Shown piece by piece: positions 13,114-40,448 of a stretch of 64,000 nt of DNA (positions are counted from its first letter, which is position 1; every line of letters starts with the position of its first letter). A program made the translations under genes and the position numbers. The notes under the pieces are model-generated. The model saw only the letters and a list, made by a program, of their open reading frames with translations, ran no database searches and was not told the DNA's origin. The DNA comes from Rhizobium redzepovicii (GTDB lineage: Bacteria; Pseudomonadota; Alphaproteobacteria; Rhizobiales; Rhizobiaceae), in the NCBI RefSeq assembly GCF_019793435.1, contig NZ_JAILYH010000002.1, positions 124,001 to 188,000 on the forward strand. The letters are read 5' to 3'.

Positions 13114-14442
13114 ATGGAGAGTGAATCTGTAACGACGCCCTTCGGGCGGCGGCCGATGTCGCTTGCCATGCTGCTGAAACAGCGGCGCGGCGAAGCGATC
13201 GCGGCCGGGACGACGCGCAACAAATGGAAACTGTTCCGATCTGTCTGCGAAGCCCGGGCAGGGCTCGACGTAACCGACCGGGCGCTGACAGTGCTCGATG
13301 CGCTGCTGAGTTTTTATCCGCAGGACGAACTCTCCAGCGAACGCGGGCTCGTGGTCTTTCCCTCGAACTTGCAGCTTTCGCTGAGAGCACGCGGCATGGC
13401 CGCTGCCACGTTGCGCCGGCACCTCGCCGTGCTTGTCGAGGCCGGCCTCATCTCCCGCAAAGACAGCCCGAACGGCAAGCGCTATATCAGGCGCAACAGG
13501 GAAGGCGGCATCGGCGAGGCCTACGGCTTCAGCCTGGCGCCGCTCCTTGCCCGCGCCGCCGAGATCGAAACGATCGCCGCACGCATTGCCGCCGACCGGC
13601 AGATGCTGCGGAGGATGAAGGAGCGGCTGACCATCTGCCGTCGCGACATCGCCAAGCTCATTTCCGCGGCCATTGAGGAAGCGGTTCCCGGCGACTGGGA
13701 GCGCATCGCTTCGACGTTCCAGGCGCTGTTGCAGCGCATTCCGAGAGCGGCAAAGCTCGAATACCTCGGGCCAATACTCGATGAGCTTGAGACGATCCGC
13801 CTAGGCATCATCAACATATTGGAATTGCAAGATAAAATTCAGATAGCGAGCACCAATGAATCCCAGATTGAGCACCACATACAGAATTCGAATCCCGAAT
13901 CCCCATCTGAATCTGAACCGGGCTTGGAAACCGGGCAGGAGGCGAACCGGCGTTGCGAACCGGGGCCAGGGCTGGAAAGGCGCGAACCGGGAATGGCCGG
14001 CGAGGATGGGGAGGGATGGCGGGCCATTGTCCGGACGCATGCCGGGAAATTGAAATCCTTCCCGCTTGGCATGGTCCTCCAGGCCTGCCCTGATATCATC
14101 GACTACGGGCCGGGCGGCACGATCGCCAGCTGGCGGGATCTGATGATGGCGGCGGCCGTCGTGCGCTCGATGCTGGGCGTCAGCCATTCGGCCTATGAGG
14201 AAGCAGCCTCGGTGATGGGGCCGGAGAGCGCCGCCACCGTCATGGCCTGCATTCTCCAGAGGGGAGGGCACATCAACTCCGCCGGCGGCTACCTCAGGGA
14301 TCTCGCCCAGCGCGCCGAACGGAGCGAGTTCACGCTCGGCCCGATGTTGATGGCGCTGTTGCGGGCAAAGGAGCGGTTTTCAGACGGGCCGTCGCATGGG
14401 CCAGAGATAGGAACAGATCTTGTTCAGGCAGCGTCGCGATAG
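13114..14442 (+). CDS. repC: Replication initiator RepC
   Basis: A 442-residue RepC, the replication initiator that defines this plasmid class. The N-terminus [20 protein letters not shown] and the winged-helix DNA-binding region that follows ([19 protein letters not shown]) are characteristic. The origin is normally inside repC, in an AT-richer middle part; here the stretch around 13800-13910 ([30 protein letters not shown]) is visibly AT-richer. The ATG at 13114 has GAGGTGAAGG upstream; an in-frame GTG at 13105 is less likely. Its 3' end overlaps the convergent chemoreceptor gene by 19 bases. Confidence 0.93.
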
Positions 14443-32803: not shown

Positions 32804-33271
32804 TGTTCTTGGTCGAGGTCAGCCGATTACGCTTAGACCTTGGTGAACATGGCCGTCGATAGGTTCCAAGCACCCTTCAACCCGGCAGCAAGGTGTGGGC
32901 CTCGATGCTGAGACATTAACCTGTAGATGCCTTCTCCTCAGGATATGCATCGACTGAAAGGGTAGGTCGCCAACCCCAACTGCCATAGTCCCCCAGTTCG
33001 TTGTCCGCGGACGACGGAGCGATGGCTTTCAAGGTCAGCTGGATGGTGCCGGCTCATGGAAGCGCGCCACGTCGCCCGAGAGGTTGCAGCAGATTGGAGA
33101 GGAGTAAATCGAGATTCACGGGGTCATCGGCGCGCTGGTTACGTCATCGTCAGCTATGGACCTGACGACCAGCCGTCGCGGCAGATACCATCCTCTACTA
33201 CATTTCGGTTCTATTCAGATTTCGATCGTAGATTGGCGCCAAACTCAAATGTGACTGCAGAGGAGCACACA
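32804..33271. other. Intergenic region, 470 bases, no gene seen
   Basis: No supported coding frame. It contains TTGTCCGCGGACGA at 33001-33014, a one-mismatch copy of the palindrome that occurs twice near 34.6 kb. An open frame from 33056 continues into the next gene but has no start signal before 33272. Confidence 0.5.
33001..33014. repeat. Palindrome TTGTCCGCGGACAA, imperfect copy
   Basis: TTGTCCGCGGACGA, one mismatch from the perfect palindrome at 34582 and 34631. It lies upstream of the hypothetical membrane-anchored protein at 33272. Confidence 0.5.
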
Positions 33272-34054
33272 GTGCGGGGGTTCATGCCGTTTGGCATCAT
33301 TGGCGTGCTCATTCTCGGCGCGATGGCCAGCTACTATTGGGAGGGAAACCTATTTGGCTTCCGCCACTGGAGTTGGCGGCAGAAGCTTACGGTTTCGGTT
33401 GAGACGCCTAATGGGATGGTAATCGGCAGTTCGGTGACTGCCGCAGGTTGGGATATGCCACCTGAATGGTTCAGAATTGGCGATTCGGGAGGCGGGCACG
33501 GCGGCCCGCTCAAACTCACCGGAGAAGCTGTTACATTGGAGGTGGCACCGAATAAGTATCTGTTTGCGCTGGTTGACGATGCCGCGACAGAACTGGCGAT
33601 CACGCTCTTCGCCAGCCCGCCATTTCGATCAGCTGGTCGAGACGAGTACGCAAGTTCCCTTGATCGAATTCAACTCATCACAGAGGCGAAAAGGCTGACA
33701 CCGAAACAATATCCTCGCCTGGTCACATTTACTGACGTCAATGATCCGACCACCGTCCGAGATGTGAAGCCATCCGAGCTGGAGGAATTCTTTGGACCTG
33801 GAGTTTCATTGAATTCTATTACCTTGTCGGTGACGCCAGAGCCGACGACCGACGGACGAGTCGACGCCGCTCTTCCCTGGCTATGTGCATATGAGTTTCG
33901 GCCGAGCGGAAAGAGCCACTTGTCACATCAAACCATTGGCCCGTCCTCGACGGCACTAAAATCGAATAGATGCCCCTGGCGAAATTACGTTATGGAGGCT
34001 TGGGGAACGGATGTCGATGACAAGATGAAAAAACGTCTCTGTTGCCCTTCCTAG
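33272..34054 (+). CDS. Hypothetical membrane-anchored protein, possibly damaged C-terminus
   Basis: About 260 residues. One N-terminal hydrophobic helix (FGIIGVLILGAMASYYWEG) is followed by a soluble part that I do not recognise by name, with KLTVSVETPNGMVIGSSV, the glycine-rich GDSGGGHGGPLKLTGEAVTLEV and KRLTPKQYPRLVTFTDVNDP. Related rhizobial proteins (recollection) end with a W-x-x-x-Y...LDG motif. Here LPWLCAYEF is present, but the LDG part (HWPVLDGTKIE) appears in another frame around 33930-33968, which suggests a frameshift. The GTG at 33272 has GAGGAG upstream; an ATG at 33284 is also possible. Confidence 0.5.
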   Translation: MRGFMPFGIIGVLILGAMASYYWEGNLFGFRHWSWRQKLTVSVETPNGMVIGSSVTAAGWDMPPEWFRIGDSGGGHGGPLKLTGEAVTLEVAPNKYLFALVDDAATELAITLFASPPFRSAGRDEYASSLDRIQLITEAKRLTPKQYPRLVTFTDVNDPTTVRDVKPSELEEFFGPGVSLNSITLSVTPEPTTDGRVDAALPWLCAYEFRPSGKSHLSHQTIGPSSTALKSNRCPWRNYVMEAWGTDVDDKMKKRLCCPS

Positions 34055-34333
34055 CGGCGCTGAGAGTGCTTCGATCTAGGCTGCATCAGTATCGACTTCG
34101 ACATGCTCCTCCCAACACCTATTGGGAGATCCTGCAATGGCTCGACGCGGTCGGAGCGACGCGAATTGAAATCAGCGGCTCGCGATCCGAAGCGGATACG
34201 CTCGATTAATGGGCTGATACAAGGCCGCGTGACGAGCCTCGTTCACGCAGTGCTATTGCATTGAGGCACATCCACGGACCGATCGAGCAAGCGCATCTCA
34301 GCAACGGGCACTGAAGATTCCGCCCCGTGAGAA

Positions 34334-34409
34334 GCCCTATCCTGAGGCGCGCCGCAGGGGCTTCGAAGGACGAGGCGGGCGCACTCACGCCAAAGAAATG
34401 CGAGAAGGA
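34334..34409. repeat. Dispersed repeat, copy 2
   Basis: GCCCTATCCTGAGGCGCGCCGCAGGGGCTTCGAAGGACGAGGC and its tail, the same orientation as copy 1 at 32204-32276, 2.1 kb away. Homologous repeats like these allow recombination and rearrangement in this stretch. Confidence 0.6.
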
Positions 34410-34581
34410 GCTTGGAGCGGCCCTCCGAGAGTTTAGCCATCGGCCTGCGCACGTCAGGATGGAACTGGAGGGTCGCGCCCTTAATCGCAGGCGCTGGCAT
34501 TCTGCATCGCCGCGCTGAGGCGAGCGGGGATCGACCCTGCAAAGGACGGGCGGCGAGAATCCGCTATCAATTGCGAATGCA

Positions 34582-34595
34582 TTGTCCGCGGACAA
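34582..34595. repeat. Palindrome TTGTCCGCGGACAA
   Basis: A perfect 14-base palindrome, 49 bases before an identical copy. The pair and the third copy at 33001 are the only ones noticed in the window. Confidence 0.6.
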
Positions 34596-34630
34596 CAGGC
34601 AACCATTTCAGAGCGGCGGCGCGGCGCAAG

Positions 34631-34644
34631 TTGTCCGCGGACAA
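34631..34644. repeat. Palindrome TTGTCCGCGGACAA
   Basis: A perfect copy, extended to GTTGTCCGCGGACAAC (34630-34645). Two sites 49 bases apart could bind one dimeric protein each or serve as recombination sites. Confidence 0.6.
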
Positions 34645-34932
34645 CGTCACACAGAATCCGCCCGCCGTCATCAGAGCTACGCCCGCTTAACCTTCCTCCA
34701 CCGCATCATCCGCGATGGCCCGACCGCCACGCTTGAATTTGCGGGATTGCGGCACTACCTCTTGATCGACCGAAGCGCCCCCCTCCGAGCCGCGGCGGTT
34801 CGACGGGCAGCATTCCTCCTCCCAGGCTGCCGGTCCCTGTCGAAGCCCGGCGCCCTCTCCCGCGCCGGACTTTCGTTATCTCGGCGAGCCGCCGTCGCCG
34901 CCGACCAGCTTTCCACTGCCGAAAAGACTATG

Positions 34933-35826
34933 TCAGGGCTCATCGTAACAAAGCGCCCATTCGTCGCCGATATACCAGCAGCGTCCTATCCGCGGCTCCG
35001 TCTTCCAAATCAGGCTCTTGACGAACTCGATGCCGCCGCGCTTGAACGCGGCCGTCAGCGCCTCAATCTCATTCTCATCGACCGTCAACCCACCATCGGC
35101 GCAGACGAAATAGGCTGTACCGATCCAGCGTGCCGCAAATCCACGCGCGCCGCGCCCGATACGAAGTGCGGCACCATGGCAGGCATGACGACCACTACTC
35201 GATGGGCGACTCTGGCGCGGTACGCCGAGCGGCAACACCAGGCGCCCTCCCGGCCGCAGACTTTCGATCCAGCGCTCGGCGGGACGCCCGACGGCAAAGT
35301 TCACGTAGATCGCGTCCATCTCTTGCTGCGGCCATTGATTGTCGTCCGCGATGATGACGCTGACATTGGCCCGGTCGGCAAGGGCTGACCGAGCGTGGCC
35401 GGCCAGATCACGATCCATCTCGATGGCATAGACATGACCAGTGGCGCCGACCAACTCGGAAAGAACCGCGCTGTAATAACCGGTGCCGGCTCCGATATGG
35501 GCGATGCGATCGCCGATTTGGACGTCCAGTTCATCCAGCAGCCGCGCATGCAGCGACGGGCTGCCATTGTTGACGCCCTTGTCGGGTTGCAAGGCGAACA
35601 ACGCGTCCTGATAGGCCAGAACCAAATCGGAGGAAAGCAGCGGGCGATATCCGCCACCCAGATTGGCGACCTGCCATGGCGGCGCACCGAGGAATTTTTC
35701 GCGCGGCACTACGGCAAAGGCGGCCTCGATCCGCGGGTTCGTCGTTCCGGCGGCTGCCGCCACCTGATGGGCGTAGGCCCGACGGACCACCGCAAGTTCG
35801 TCGGCCGTGAACATCGCAATGGGCAT
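34933..35826 (-). CDS. PCMT-family SAM-dependent methyltransferase
   Basis: A 297-residue protein like protein-L-isoaspartate O-methyltransferase. SAM motif I reads IAHIGAGTGYYSAVLSEL (about residue 107), the acidic post-I position is AIEMDRDLA, and motif III-like SLRPGGRLVLPLG is near residue 190. An N-terminal helical part of about 80 residues (AFAVVPREKFLGAPPW) is standard. The C-terminal 90 residues differ from the classical repair enzyme, so another methyl acceptor is possible. It stands alone in the accessory stretch. An ATG at residue 5 is an alternative start. Confidence 0.8.
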   Translation of the reverse strand: MPIAMFTADELAVVRRAYAHQVAAAAGTTNPRIEAAFAVVPREKFLGAPPWQVANLGGGYRPLLSSDLVLAYQDALFALQPDKGVNNGSPSLHARLLDELDVQIGDRIAHIGAGTGYYSAVLSELVGATGHVYAIEMDRDLAGHARSALADRANVSVIIADDNQWPQQEMDAIYVNFAVGRPAERWIESLRPGGRLVLPLGVPRQSRPSSSGRHACHGAALRIGRGARGFAARWIGTAYFVCADGGLTVDENEIEALTAAFKRGGIEFVKSLIWKTEPRIGRCWYIGDEWALCYDEP

Positions 35827-35905
35827 GGCTCATCTCCAAACATGACTTGATCTGAAGCGACAACATTCGTGACGGAAGTTACGCGCTATTTTGCTTCCAT
35901 TGTAA

Positions 35906-36119
35906 AAAACTCCGTTGTTATGTCATACTGTTAATGCCTGGATGGGGACCCCTCTCTTTGCGGCACCGAGGGTAACTGGGCTAGATTTGGCGGCAGTACG
36001 GATTTTATCATCGATCGCAGCCGCAAGGCGACACTAACGCAATTGGATGCGGGGCACGATCACAACCATCAAGAGGCGATTGACGCAATCGCCAGACATG
36101 CGACATAAAACTCCGTTGT
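35906..36119. repeat. Direct repeats flanking an orphan coding fragment
   Basis: AAAACTCCGTTGT occurs exactly at 35906-35918 and again at 36107-36119. Between them a frame stays open from 35935 to 36108. Its protein-like sequence has no start codon and ends GHDHNHQEAIDAIARHAT. The repeats could be the scar of an insertion or deletion. The fragment is not identified. Confidence 0.4.
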
Positions 36120-36198
36120 GTATCCAAACCTTACAATCTGGGCAGGTTGATAATTGGTTGTTACGATTGCCGCTGTGTTAGCCCGGAGTATTTTAGAC

Positions 36199-36840
36199 AT
36201 GTATGTTGGTCGAATTGTTGGCGTGGGTCGCACCCGAAAAGGGGATTTGGTCGCTGCTTACAGGGTTTCGAGCCGATCGTTTCCCAACAGGAACGCGGAA
36301 AAGCTGGGCAACTCTGTGCAGATTATTGCCCAACCGGAAAGCGCCGACGCAGCATCAGACAGTCCTTACATTGCTTATGAATGTCTAATTTGGAACGATC
36401 ATTTTGCGGTTGTCAGCAACGGCACGCATACCAGACCGATTTATGAGCGGCTTAAGGCAGGTAATGCCCCCCGAGATGCAATTGCCAGCGTTCTCGTTGG
36501 CCTTGACCGTGAGTTCGATCAGCATGACACGCCGCGAATTTGCGGTTTGGTTGACCTTGCCGAGAGCAGGCTATGGCTCGGTAGCGTAACCGCCACCAGC
36601 TTATCAGTTATGCCTATGGAGATTGAGCCGGGGCAGCTCGCCTATATCACGACTTATGCGTTTCCTCTTCCCCGCGTCGAACAGATTGATAGTGACTTTG
36701 GCGCCGCTGAGCCGATTGCAATTTGTCGCCATATAACCGATGCATCAGTCTTCTCTGAATTCGAGAAACCTATTTGCGCCACATCCTGGATCGCGTCTGC
36801 AACAGGACATCAAAGCGCGACGCTGAACTCCATCCGCTGA
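36199..36840 (+). CDS. Archaeal-type IMP cyclohydrolase-like protein (PurO family)
   Basis: A 213-residue protein whose sequence follows archaeal PurO closely: MYVGRIVGVGRTRKGD at the start, AAYRVSSRSFPNR (residues about 20-32), PYIAYECLIWNDHFAVVSNG and HTRPIYERL, then APRDAIASVLVGLDREFD and HDTPRICGLVD. PurO closes the ring of FAICAR to give IMP, the last step of purine synthesis, normally in archaea. Bacteria use PurH for this. Length fits (about 200). The ATG at 36199 follows CGGAGT. The gene has no purine neighbours, is less GC-rich than the core of the plasmid, and lies in a repeat-filled stretch, all pointing to horizontal acquisition. Activity is not certain. Confidence 0.72.
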   Translation: MYVGRIVGVGRTRKGDLVAAYRVSSRSFPNRNAEKLGNSVQIIAQPESADAASDSPYIAYECLIWNDHFAVVSNGTHTRPIYERLKAGNAPRDAIASVLVGLDREFDQHDTPRICGLVDLAESRLWLGSVTATSLSVMPMEIEPGQLAYITTYAFPLPRVEQIDSDFGAAEPIAICRHITDASVFSEFEKPICATSWIASATGHQSATLNSIR

Positions 36841-36881
36841 TTTCATATAAGGGGATGGTTCGCTTCAAGCCCGACAGCCGC

Positions 36882-37040
36882 TTAGGCTTTCGCGGCAACA
36901 AGGCCTGCCAGTTGCGGGGTGGCCTGGCAACTGACGCCGAGCCGGTCACCGAGATAATGGTAAAAGGACAGTCCGAGCTTCTGGCAGGTCTTCATCAGGC
37001 CGAGCATAGTGTCGCGCGCAACATGGCCGTCTCTGTTCAT
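36882..37040 (-). pseudogene. Probable transposase C-terminal remnant
   Basis: The minus-strand frame ends with RDGHVARDTMLGLMKTCQKL followed by GLSFYHYLGDRLGV and a short basic tail. This looks like the conserved C-terminus of a DDE transposase (segments of the type K-TCRKLG-SF--YLG-RL are common in insertion sequences of rhizobia). The rest of the element is absent. Identification is from pattern memory only; the family is not assigned. Confidence 0.35.
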
Positions 37041-37195
37041 GGTGCTACCAGATATCTTTCGCCTGGTGACGAAGCCGCGAGATCCTTCTGCCGCACTTAG
37101 GCCGCGCGGCAGCACTGAACTGCAAGCAGGGAGCATCAGCCTGAGCCCGCCCGACCTCCGGGTCTCGACACTTCCCAGGAGCGCCGTTCGCACGA

Positions 37196-37705
37196 TCAGG
37201 CGCGCGGCGTCGTGCCACCCATGGCGTTTACGCTGTACCGCTTCTTGATCCTGTCGACGGGCATCCCGTCCTGAAGGGGAACCTGGGCCACCCTGTCATA
37301 GGTCTCAAAGCCCATCTTGGCGTAATAGCCAAGGCCGCTGATATTGTCGGCGCGGATGGTCGCATTGATGAATTCGAGTCCGAACGCTTCCGCTGCCGCA
37401 AGGGTCGCGGGAAAAAGCGCGCTGCCGACGCCTGCGGTCTTCGGGTTCAAACGGGCAAAGGTCGCAATGTCGGCGACGCCTTTCGGTGGATCGCCATATA
37501 AGCTCAGCGATTGAAAACCGACCAGCGACTGATTGTGCTCGGCTACATGGCAGGCAAGCGGAAACTCGCCATCGATGAACCAGTCGGCGAATTCGGCAGC
37601 CGAAAGCGGGGTCTCGAGCGCTGTCGTTCCGCCGGCCCGGATGATCTCGTTCAGGAGAGCGCTCAGTTCCTCGGCGTCGGAGGAGACGGCTTTTCGGATG
37701 TGCAT
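37196..37705 (-). CDS. GNAT-family N-acetyltransferase
   Basis: A 169-residue acetyltransferase. It begins MHIRKAVSSDAEELSALLNE, as in many PhoP/ribosomal-type GNAT proteins. The acetyl-CoA loop is atypical (NPKTAGVGSALFPATLAAAE, with G-x-G-x-A in place of R-x-x-G-x-G/A), followed by INATIRADNISGLGYYAKMGFE, which is the usual GLY-YxK-GF end of the fold. Substrate unknown. It is upstream of and on the same strand as nothing; the ABC operon at 37843 ends 137 bases away. Confidence 0.8.
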   Translation of the reverse strand: MHIRKAVSSDAEELSALLNEIIRAGGTTALETPLSAAEFADWFIDGEFPLACHVAEHNQSLVGFQSLSLYGDPPKGVADIATFARLNPKTAGVGSALFPATLAAAEAFGLEFINATIRADNISGLGYYAKMGFETYDRVAQVPLQDGMPVDRIKKRYSVNAMGGTTPRA

Positions 37706-37842
37706 GTCTTGGCTACCTCGTTATCCCGACAACCTATCGGCGAGATTTTGAGATGACAAGTCACCATTTGTCTGCCGAAATGACGCATCATCCAGCCCAT
37801 CCGACAGCGATTTTCGCAGCCCCGATTGCGCGTAAACTGTCT

Positions 37843-38913
<1,071 letters not shown>

Positions 38914-38927
38914 GTAGGACCTATCCT

Positions 38928-40448
38928 CTATCGCTTCCTGCGCACGCGCAGCGCCTGGAACGGCTTGCGCGGGATTTTGACGCCGAAGGAGGCGTCCGGC
39001 TTGCCGCCGCGCACGACCGAGCCATGACGGGTCGGATGCGGAACGGGTGCCGCCACCTTCTCGGCCGGCGTGATCGTCATCTCCCAGGTGTCGATGATAT
39101 CGACATCGTAATCGTCGCCATCTACCGGCAGGCCGGTGGACCAGACGACCGGCTGATGCTCGCCGAAATAGATCAGCCGGAAATCGCCGTCGCCGTCACG
39201 CGCGCCCGACACGCGCGACCAAGGCCATTCGCCGATGATGCCGAGCGGCTCAAGTCCATGTTTGACGTCGGCTTCCAGGAGATCGCGAAGGAAGCCGATG
39301 CGCTTCCAGGCCTCGCCCCGCAGTTCGCCGCCCTTGGCCCACCAGATCAGATCTTCGGGATGGGAATAGGTCTCGCCATGGCCGGCATAGCCGCCGCGCG
39401 CCATGGTGATCCAGAAGCGATGCACGAGTTCTCCCGCATGAAGATTGCCCCAGGACTGCAGGATGTCGCCCTCATATTCCGGCTCGTCATTGACGACAGG
39501 CTTGCCATAGGCATCGCGCCATTCCTGGGTCCGCTTGACGTCGGGGTTCTGAATGCAGGTGTGGGTGACCCACGGCTTGCGATGATCGAAATTCGCGGTC
39601 ACGTCGCCATTATGAATGGAGCGCAGGTGCTGGTAGGGATCGTTTTCCTCCAGAATGTGGAAGTAGCGATCCCACTGCGCCATGGGCTTGGTGTCGATGA
39701 GGAAGTCATATTCGTTGGCGAGCGACCACCAGACGTTCCGGTAGGCAGAAAGACGGGCGGCCAGATATTCGACATAGCGGAAATCCTGCGCCGCCGACAT
39801 GTCGGCATAACCCCAGCGGTCATAGGGATGGAAGATGATGATATCGGCTTCGATGCCGAGCTCGCAGAGAGCCGAGACCTGTTTTTCGAAATGCTGGAAG
39901 GCCGCGGGGTTGGGCCGGTCGAAATCCTGCCTGCCTTCCGCGCCGCTTTCGAAGCAGGCATGCAGCGGCTCGTTGACATTATAGGGATAGTCCTTCGGGA
40001 ATACGCCCATACGCATCTTATTGAAACGCGCGGTCTTCAGCGTCTCCAACGTCTGCTTCTGCATGTCGAGCGGCTGATGCGTCCAGGCGTAGCAGGTCGT
40101 TCCGAAGGAGAGGAACGGCGTGCCGTCGGCATACGCGAAGTGGAATTTGTTGCGCACGCGCACCGGGCCGTGATTGCCGGCCGAAGGTGCCACCGCGGTC
40201 AAAACGCCGGTCCTGCCGTCAAGCGCCGCGGTCTTGGAGCGCGTCTTAAACGACCACTCACCCTTGCTGTCGGGCATGAAACGGATGCGGTAGGTGCCGT
40301 TGCCGTCATAGAAGCCCGGCACGCGCACGTCGCGGCTCTTCTGGGTGAACACGGCATCGAATGCCACGTCGAGATAGGGATTTCCGGCCGCAGGCCCTTC
40401 GAAGGCGGCCTCGAACACACCCCATTTTTCGACTGTTGCATCGGACAT
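38928..40448 (-). CDS. Cytoplasmic DUF5060/DUF4038 glycoside hydrolase, GH140 apiosidase-like
   Basis: A 506-residue protein with an N-terminal DUF5060 beta-sandwich (about 1-95, VPGFYDGNGTYRIRFMPDSK), a TIM barrel of the DUF4038 apiosidase-like type (about 105-440) and a short C-terminal domain. The barrel has FLSFGTTCYAW, then WWSLANEYDF with Asn245-Glu246 as candidate acid/base, and PVVNDEPEYEGD with Asp321/Glu322 as candidate nucleophile region. GH140 enzymes release D-apiose from plant cell-wall glycans. There is no signal peptide, so it acts in the cytoplasm on an imported glycoside. It sits between permease and ATPase genes, next to the apiose catabolic genes; the substrate is inferred from that. 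Confidence 0.75.
   Translation of the reverse strand: MSDATVEKWGVFEAAFEGPAAGNPYLDVAFDAVFTQKSRDVRVPGFYDGNGTYRIRFMPDSKGEWSFKTRSKTAALDGRTGVLTAVAPSAGNHGPVRVRNKFHFAYADGTPFLSFGTTCYAWTHQPLDMQKQTLETLKTARFNKMRMGVFPKDYPYNVNEPLHACFESGAEGRQDFDRPNPAAFQHFEKQVSALCELGIEADIIIFHPYDRWGYADMSAAQDFRYVEYLAARLSAYRNVWWSLANEYDFLIDTKPMAQWDRYFHILEENDPYQHLRSIHNGDVTANFDHRKPWVTHTCIQNPDVKRTQEWRDAYGKPVVNDEPEYEGDILQSWGNLHAGELVHRFWITMARGGYAGHGETYSHPEDLIWWAKGGELRGEAWKRIGFLRDLLEADVKHGLEPLGIIGEWPWSRVSGARDGDGDFRLIYFGEHQPVVWSTGLPVDGDDYDVDIIDTWEMTITPAEKVAAPVPHPTRHGSVVRGGKPDASFGVKIPRKPFQALRVRRKR

Follow-up and report, generated by a model that had tools for sequence, protein, structure and literature searches.

The IMP cyclohydrolase PurO and the cyclohydrolase domain of PurH (ATIC) share their reaction, and the two are unrelated in sequence and structure (PMC6797443). 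In archaea, passages of PMC3261824 and PMC6797443 describe PurO as a replacement for that domain, whereas the Rhizobium genome studied here has a full-length PurH as well. Arginine, glutamate and tyrosine side chains have been proposed as catalytic in PurO, the Thermococcus kodakarensis enzyme TK0430 is active both in vitro and in E. coli, and the Pyrococci related to this species have no known IMP cyclohydrolase at all (PMC6797443). For bacteria, a 2019 survey quoted in a passage of PMC6797443 counted PurO-like genes in 22 of 1266 genomes, and a paper on Sphingomonas includes an annotated purO (PMC12078293). A passage of PMC4177761 states that PurO is confined to Archaea; this is contradicted by the present data. 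Among the listed open-licence literature, we found no paper on a rhizobial PurO.

We investigated a purO gene in a window of 64,000 nucleotides, the whole stretch of DNA analysed, from a Rhizobium contig (Table 1). Judging from sequence, the product is probably (at about 0.78) a working PurO-type IMP cyclohydrolase beside PurH, encoded by an accessory gene that moves nearly alone and lies here by an IS66-type remnant.

Table 1. Features of the purO locus and of equivalent sites (window positions unless another record is named)
Feature	Position	Strand	Evidence
purO (PurO-type IMP cyclohydrolase, 213 aa)	36199..36840	+	ORF, Pfam, NCBIfam, PDB, alignment, predicted model
Likely ribosome-binding site GGAG of purO	36185..36188	+	upstream DNA alignment
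purO 5' leader	36098..36198	+	blastn of flanks, alignment
PCMT-type methyltransferase gene, left neighbour	34933..35826	-	Pfam; similar DNA in related plasmids
GNAT acetyltransferase gene, right neighbour	37196..37705	-	Pfam; similar DNA in related plasmids
Insert, 1,166 bp	35936..37101	.	R. acidisoli plasmid has 27 other bases there
Decayed 3' part of transposase gene, IS66-type	36879..37089	-	match inside R. johnstonii 3841 IS66 transposase gene
RepC genes	13150-13671; G000:C47:322413-322934		profile match
RtcB-family gene at equivalent site, Rhizobium plasmids	L053 2766-4160; L057 2794-4236; L060 2834-4276		

Family membership and active-site residues

The original prediction had assigned the gene to an archaeal-type PurO, and profile searches bear out the PurO identity. 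PF07826 matches the product with 149.5 bits (cut-off 28.1; E 1.1e-43) and is its sole Pfam match, the PurH/ATIC domain PF01808 being absent. Both NCBIfam PurO equivalog models are passed as well, NF003167 with 171.3 bits (cut-off 150) and TIGR01922 with 162.3 bits (cut-off 158.35), the latter by only 4 bits. Up to an E value of 1, the only solved relatives found by sequence were PurO entries of M. thermautotrophicus (1kuu, E 3.9e-27; 2ntk, E 5.5e-27), and the identity to this protein, MTH1020, is 37%. All five sequence blocks quoted in the prediction were located: YVGRI at residues 2-6, AAYRVSSRSFPNR at 19-31, PYIAYE at 56-61, AVVSNG at 70-75 and DTPRI at 110-114. Neither an unrelated family as the best match nor a loss of all catalytic residues was found: the Pfam match is to PF07826 only, and the proposed catalytic Arg, Tyr and Glu are kept.

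We based AlphaFold modelling on 10 alphaproteobacterial sequences. Only the best of the five models was good (pLDDT 79.3, pTM 0.81), the others having pLDDT values of 60.0 to 37.7. The PDB entries closest to this best model were 1kuu, 2ntm and 2ntk (TM 0.83-0.84), and proteasome subunits and other Ntn folds ranked lower. The predicted fold appears Ntn-hydrolase-like and would lack the N-terminal nucleophile, residue 2 being Tyr and not Ser, Thr or Cys.

We take the proposed catalytic set to be R30, Y59 and E104 of the archaeal enzyme, corresponding to R31, Y60 and E105 in the Rhizobium protein. These three residues are invariant in all 17 aligned sequences, and the set is also kept in a clostridial relative from Monoglobus with 27% identity. 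Kang in 2007 reportedly gave the full list of 13 substrate-contacting residues of PurO. Archaeal position 54, an Asn in MTH1020, is Ser in 16 of 16 aligned alphaproteobacterial PurO sequences (Ser55 in the Rhizobium protein); passages of PMC3261824 report Asn54 as a substrate contact and note the same Asn-to-Ser exchange in two Methanocellales.

The purO gene and its leader

The reading frame is as predicted, running from the ATG at 36199 to a stop codon that ends at 36840 with no internal stops. We favoured this start over that of a longer ORF beginning with TTG, because the ATG is preceded by GGAG in 10 of the 14 purO copies whose upstream DNA was aligned. The leader is common to the nearest purO copy over about 100 bp, and to other close copies over about 60-90 bp. 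It may have a promoter role, and purO would then be expressed from its own promoter. The G+C content of purO is 52.9%, against 61.7% for the window.

An upstream riboswitch was considered and rejected. No known RNA or riboswitch overlapped purO or its leader in an Rfam scan of window positions 33000-40000, which returned ar14 elsewhere and two weak matches far below the gathering score. The ar14 match, an alphaproteobacterial sRNA (59.8 bits, gathering score 58.8), lies at 34761-34877 on the forward strand, between the methyltransferase gene to the left of purO and an ORF at 33056.

The plasmid and the insertion site

The contig (C47 of the source genome; 515,902 bases) has two RepC matches, in agreement with the plasmid location that had been claimed. 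Two RepC genes on one 516-kb contig suggest that the plasmid is a cointegrate or that it uses two replication systems.

The gene had further been described as lying alone among repeats and decayed fragments, which holds for the transposase remnant but not for the flanking genes, which are open and have family matches above cut-off. Between 33800 and 37900 we found only two-copy repeats, each 17-22 bases long and 73-88% identical, together with three short inverted pairs. The remnant matches 210 plasmid records, many of them rhizobial, and transposase features underlie most of the 12 matches listed. The R. johnstonii 3841 transposase gene belongs to PF03050 (IS66), and no Pfam family matched the short ORF of the remnant itself. 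Among plasmids, nothing informative matched the left part of the insert (35936-36110), and no target duplication was identified at the insert; a role of the IS in the insertion of purO is plausible.

The methyltransferase-GNAT gene pair occurs on many Rhizobium plasmids, and we compared 10 of 309 matching records at the insertion site. In five (R. acidisoli, WSM2304, NZLR1, BT04 and WSM1455), only a short gap separates the two genes, a result that rests on DNA matches, as two of the records are unannotated and the BT04 methyltransferase gene is unannotated. The site holds an RtcB-family gene in three others (C104, N324 and BT03), an IS66-type transposase gene in 3841, and a hypothetical gene in CB782. 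The site behaves like an insertion hotspot, since the RtcB gene occupies the same intergenic position on three plasmids.

We found no support for contamination or a misassembly that placed archaeal DNA in the contig. Rhizobium plasmids match the flanks on both sides, the closest homologues of the protein are themselves rhizobial (up to 87% identity), and the listed completeness and contamination of the assembly are 100% and 0.01; such an artefact is therefore hardly credible.

Distribution of PurO

Within the genus, 6 of 148 genomes have PF07826, the source genome among them, and one of the six copies is broken. Wider samples gave 2 of 394 genomes in the family, 2 of 297 in the order, 1 of 385 in the class, 3 of 398 in the phylum and 1 of 199 in a second family; these samples overlap, and their positives are the source genome, G017 and G1504 recurring, with only G1504 from outside the genus. 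A second collection gave 9 loci in Rhizobium, Neorhizobium, Ciceribacter, Devosia and an uncultured Rhodospirillales. Eight of 72,556 plasmid records match; in five, a broken Sinorhizobium sp. B11 copy among them, the match covers 80% or more of the query, and four rhizobial plasmid copies are already annotated as "IMP cyclohydrolase" in public records.

The B11 copy, on plasmid p2 (G116:C3:10297-10877), is split in two, each part with a flagged stop, and C-terminal purO fragments were found in Rhizobium sp. T1473, T1470 and T136. As broken and partial copies exist, purO is dispensable. The broken Sinorhizobium gene is evidence that purO can be lost.

Carriage by phages was also considered. 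It is ruled against by the absence of matches among 50,697 phage records, and by a scan of viral contigs that gave two pattern matches, neither a PurO relative.

Surroundings of other purO copies

Across 17 purO loci, no neighbour gene within 8 kb was found in a constant place, and a conserved operon partner was accordingly rejected (L029 and L030 were left out of the neighbour-gene comparison). We identified 115 collinear DNA matches between the 17 loci, none of which starts before -199 or ends after 704 relative to the ATG. The ORF ends at 642 in most copies and the longest match runs about 62 bp past the stop, indicating that similarity ends within 200 bp of the ORF. Among the best matches listed, neighbours taken from different loci reach a similarity of no more than 52% over long stretches, and the best of these look like paralogous transporter genes. 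Common neighbour families occur only at scattered offsets and with low identity, the largest group (9 loci) being ABC-transporter ATPases; sugar-type ABC operons lie near purO in the window and in L011, but not on the same side of it, and their similarity is 27-52%.

At 11 further loci, we additionally scanned the immediate neighbour to the left and to the right of purO with Pfam (22 proteins). Only those of Devosia and R. terrae were suggestive of a purine or one-carbon link, and none was apparent in the others. In Devosia nitrariae (L014 8001-10199), purO, folD and an FchA-like cyclodeaminase gene stand in a row on one strand, an arrangement seen at this locus only, and in R. terrae an adenine deaminase gene lies beside purO. 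FolD and FchA-like enzymes belong to the folate pathway to 10-formyl-folate, the donor for the step before PurO. In the annotated Sinorhizobium B11 record, pyrF follows the broken purO copy.

Transfer, gain and selection

The acquired status proposed for the gene is supported by the insert, at a site where R. acidisoli has 27 bases, and by incongruence between purO and purH. We compared these two genes in 11 genomes (55 pairs), leaving out plasmid-only records, L017 (a MAG with a partial purO) and G116 (broken purO). R. ecuadorense and Ciceribacter have purO genes that are 92.6% identical and purH genes that are 78.6% identical, indicating recent passage between lineages or a common near source. 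Between the window genome and R. ecuadorense, identity is 93.3% for purH, the highest purH value of the set, and only 77.9% for purO. Their purO genes lie on different contigs in differing surroundings, and the DNA of the window site is found in R. ecuadorense on contig C993, apart from its purO on C1004. On these sequences, the simplest reading would be a separate gain of purO in the two genomes, although loss and replacement of an older copy could mimic this. Across all pairs, the two genes still correlate (Spearman 0.60); purO is more alike than purH in 18 of 55 and not in the other 37, and thus recent transfer is clear only for some pairs. That purO was gained more than once, and the number of these separate gains, we infer.

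The label "archaeal" should be used with caution, as bacterial copies were already published; the nearest relatives seen are other Alphaproteobacteria. In a PurO tree of 18 rows, 4 of 15 inner branches are starred, and the one archaeal row, from the PDB and with a very long branch, falls inside the bacterial set, a placing in a little-resolved tree that we do not trust.

Finally, we estimated selection from Nei-Gojobori counts on 15 copies, leaving out L017, the broken B11 copy and the fragment L028. For the window copy, comparison with its nearest relative gives a dN/dS of 0.116, and comparison with the 9 of 14 copies for which dS is finite gives 0.076-0.134; its dS starts at 0.59 and exceeds 1.6 for L018 and L025, the remaining 5 of 14 comparisons being saturated. 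For all copies, the median is 0.11 (range 0.06-0.31), with finite dS in 44 of 105 pairs. A dN/dS of about 0.1 reflects purifying selection, and thus the protein has been kept in intact copies.

These values bear on whether purO might be a neutral passenger heading for decay and maintained solely by repeated transfer, as its rare and scattered occurrence, the want of a tie to any neighbour gene, the adjoining IS remnant and the broken copies in other replicons might suggest. The reading is weakened by the selection result, obtained between intact copies and with a window dS of at least 0.59, and also by the conservation of the reading frame and much of the leader, and we regard it as very improbable.

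PurO beside PurH

As the original prediction had supposed, PurO and PurH occur together: the source genome has one PurO, and one full-length PurH on another contig (G000:C80). PurH scored above cut-off in all 13 purO-bearing genomes tested (7/7 and 6/6, the source genome included), a set that contains G116, with its broken purO, and L017, a MAG in which purO was only partly aligned.

The prediction had left three readings side by side: redundancy, specialisation or another substrate. Because the catalytic residues are kept and the family scores are high enough for the PurO models, the same reaction as that of PurH is favoured on sequence grounds, and purO would therefore be redundant at the level of the pathway, a specialised role being less probable. 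A specialised PurO would act in vivo on a related imidazole nucleotide, or serve to lower AICAR or FAICAR signals, for example in plant infection, and not to make IMP. The full-length PurH already in 13 of 13 tested carriers, the selection on intact copies despite it, and the Ser in place of Asn at archaeal position 54 would all fit such a role. So would a passage of PMC8751395 that treats AICAR as important in the rhizosphere and apparently also for infection, and states, citing Newman 1994, that the synthesis of AICAR "seems to be required" when various Rhizobium infect legumes. Against it, both strict equivalog cut-offs are passed and the proposed catalytic residues are unchanged. The carriers, moreover, include Devosia and an uncultured Rhodospirillales, both presumably not symbionts of legumes. 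On balance we consider a specialised role unlikely.

A working second cyclohydrolase, our preferred reading, would close the ring of FAICAR, the product of the formyltransferase half of PurH, to give IMP, a reaction carried out by the PurO enzymes described in PMC6797443, and would do so as a second enzyme beside a bifunctional PurH of chromosomal type. The gene would move among alphaproteobacterial replicons as little more than its ORF, with a leader of up to about 100-200 bp and a few tens of bp after the stop. The equilibrium of AICAR formyltransferase is unfavourable and is pulled by the cyclohydrolase, so that an extra cyclohydrolase could speed the removal of AICAR. The most likely benefit would be more pull on the conversion of AICAR to IMP when this step is limiting or PurH is impaired. 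The purO-folD-FchA-like gene order of Devosia and the adenine deaminase gene of R. terrae fit the idea of AICAR removal, at 2 of the 11 loci. Rather improbably, purO might be a mobile bypass, a second and structurally unrelated IMP cyclohydrolase through which IMP synthesis continues while a natural antimetabolite poisons PurH or conditions in the rhizosphere limit it; the gene would then be spreading singly, like plasmid-borne drug-insensitive isoenzymes.

Comparison with known PurO systems

The Rhizobium protein resembles the archaeal PurO enzymes (MTH1020, PDB 1kuu/2ntk; TK0430; MJ0626) in family models, length and the Arg/Tyr/Glu set, and its predicted fold is like theirs; it differs in having Ser where the archaeal protein has Asn54. 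The purO of T. kodakarensis likewise appears to have been transferred, and lies amid seemingly redundant genes and traces of mobile elements (PMC6797443). It clusters, however, with thiC, purC-like and purP-like genes (PMC6797443), whereas the rhizobial purO has no adjoining purine gene.

Clostridial PurO-like proteins from Monoglobus and Subdoligranulum score higher with PF07826 (241 and 227 bits, against 149.5 for the Rhizobium protein), and, unlike the rhizobial one, their genes belong to purine clusters, where a gene for an AICAR formyltransferase adjoins them. In a Subdoligranulum record labelled as a plasmid (L071 5326-6678), a PurN-type formyltransferase domain (PF00551) is joined in one ORF to a PurO-like domain (PF07826) that comes after it, and a gene for a PF01808 protein of 405 aa follows. 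The clostridial proteins seem to replace the cyclohydrolase domain of PurH, and their place in purine clusters suggests the same reaction in other bacteria.

The closest counterparts are the alphaproteobacterial PurO proteins of Rhizobium, Neorhizobium, Ciceribacter, Agrobacterium vitis and Devosia, which are 64-87% identical to the Rhizobium protein and 213-218 aa when full-length, with gene surroundings that differ from those of the copy studied here. The rhizobial copies suggest that the gene travels singly between bacteria already equipped with PurH, with multiple gains, probably also by two close relatives, and is kept by selection. They make it possible to ask, in a natural setting, why a core pathway keeps a redundant step, for which a complementation assay is already in the literature (PMC6797443). 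The PurO family and its bacterial members are known; what is curious is that rhizobia seem to have gained the gene repeatedly and to maintain it.
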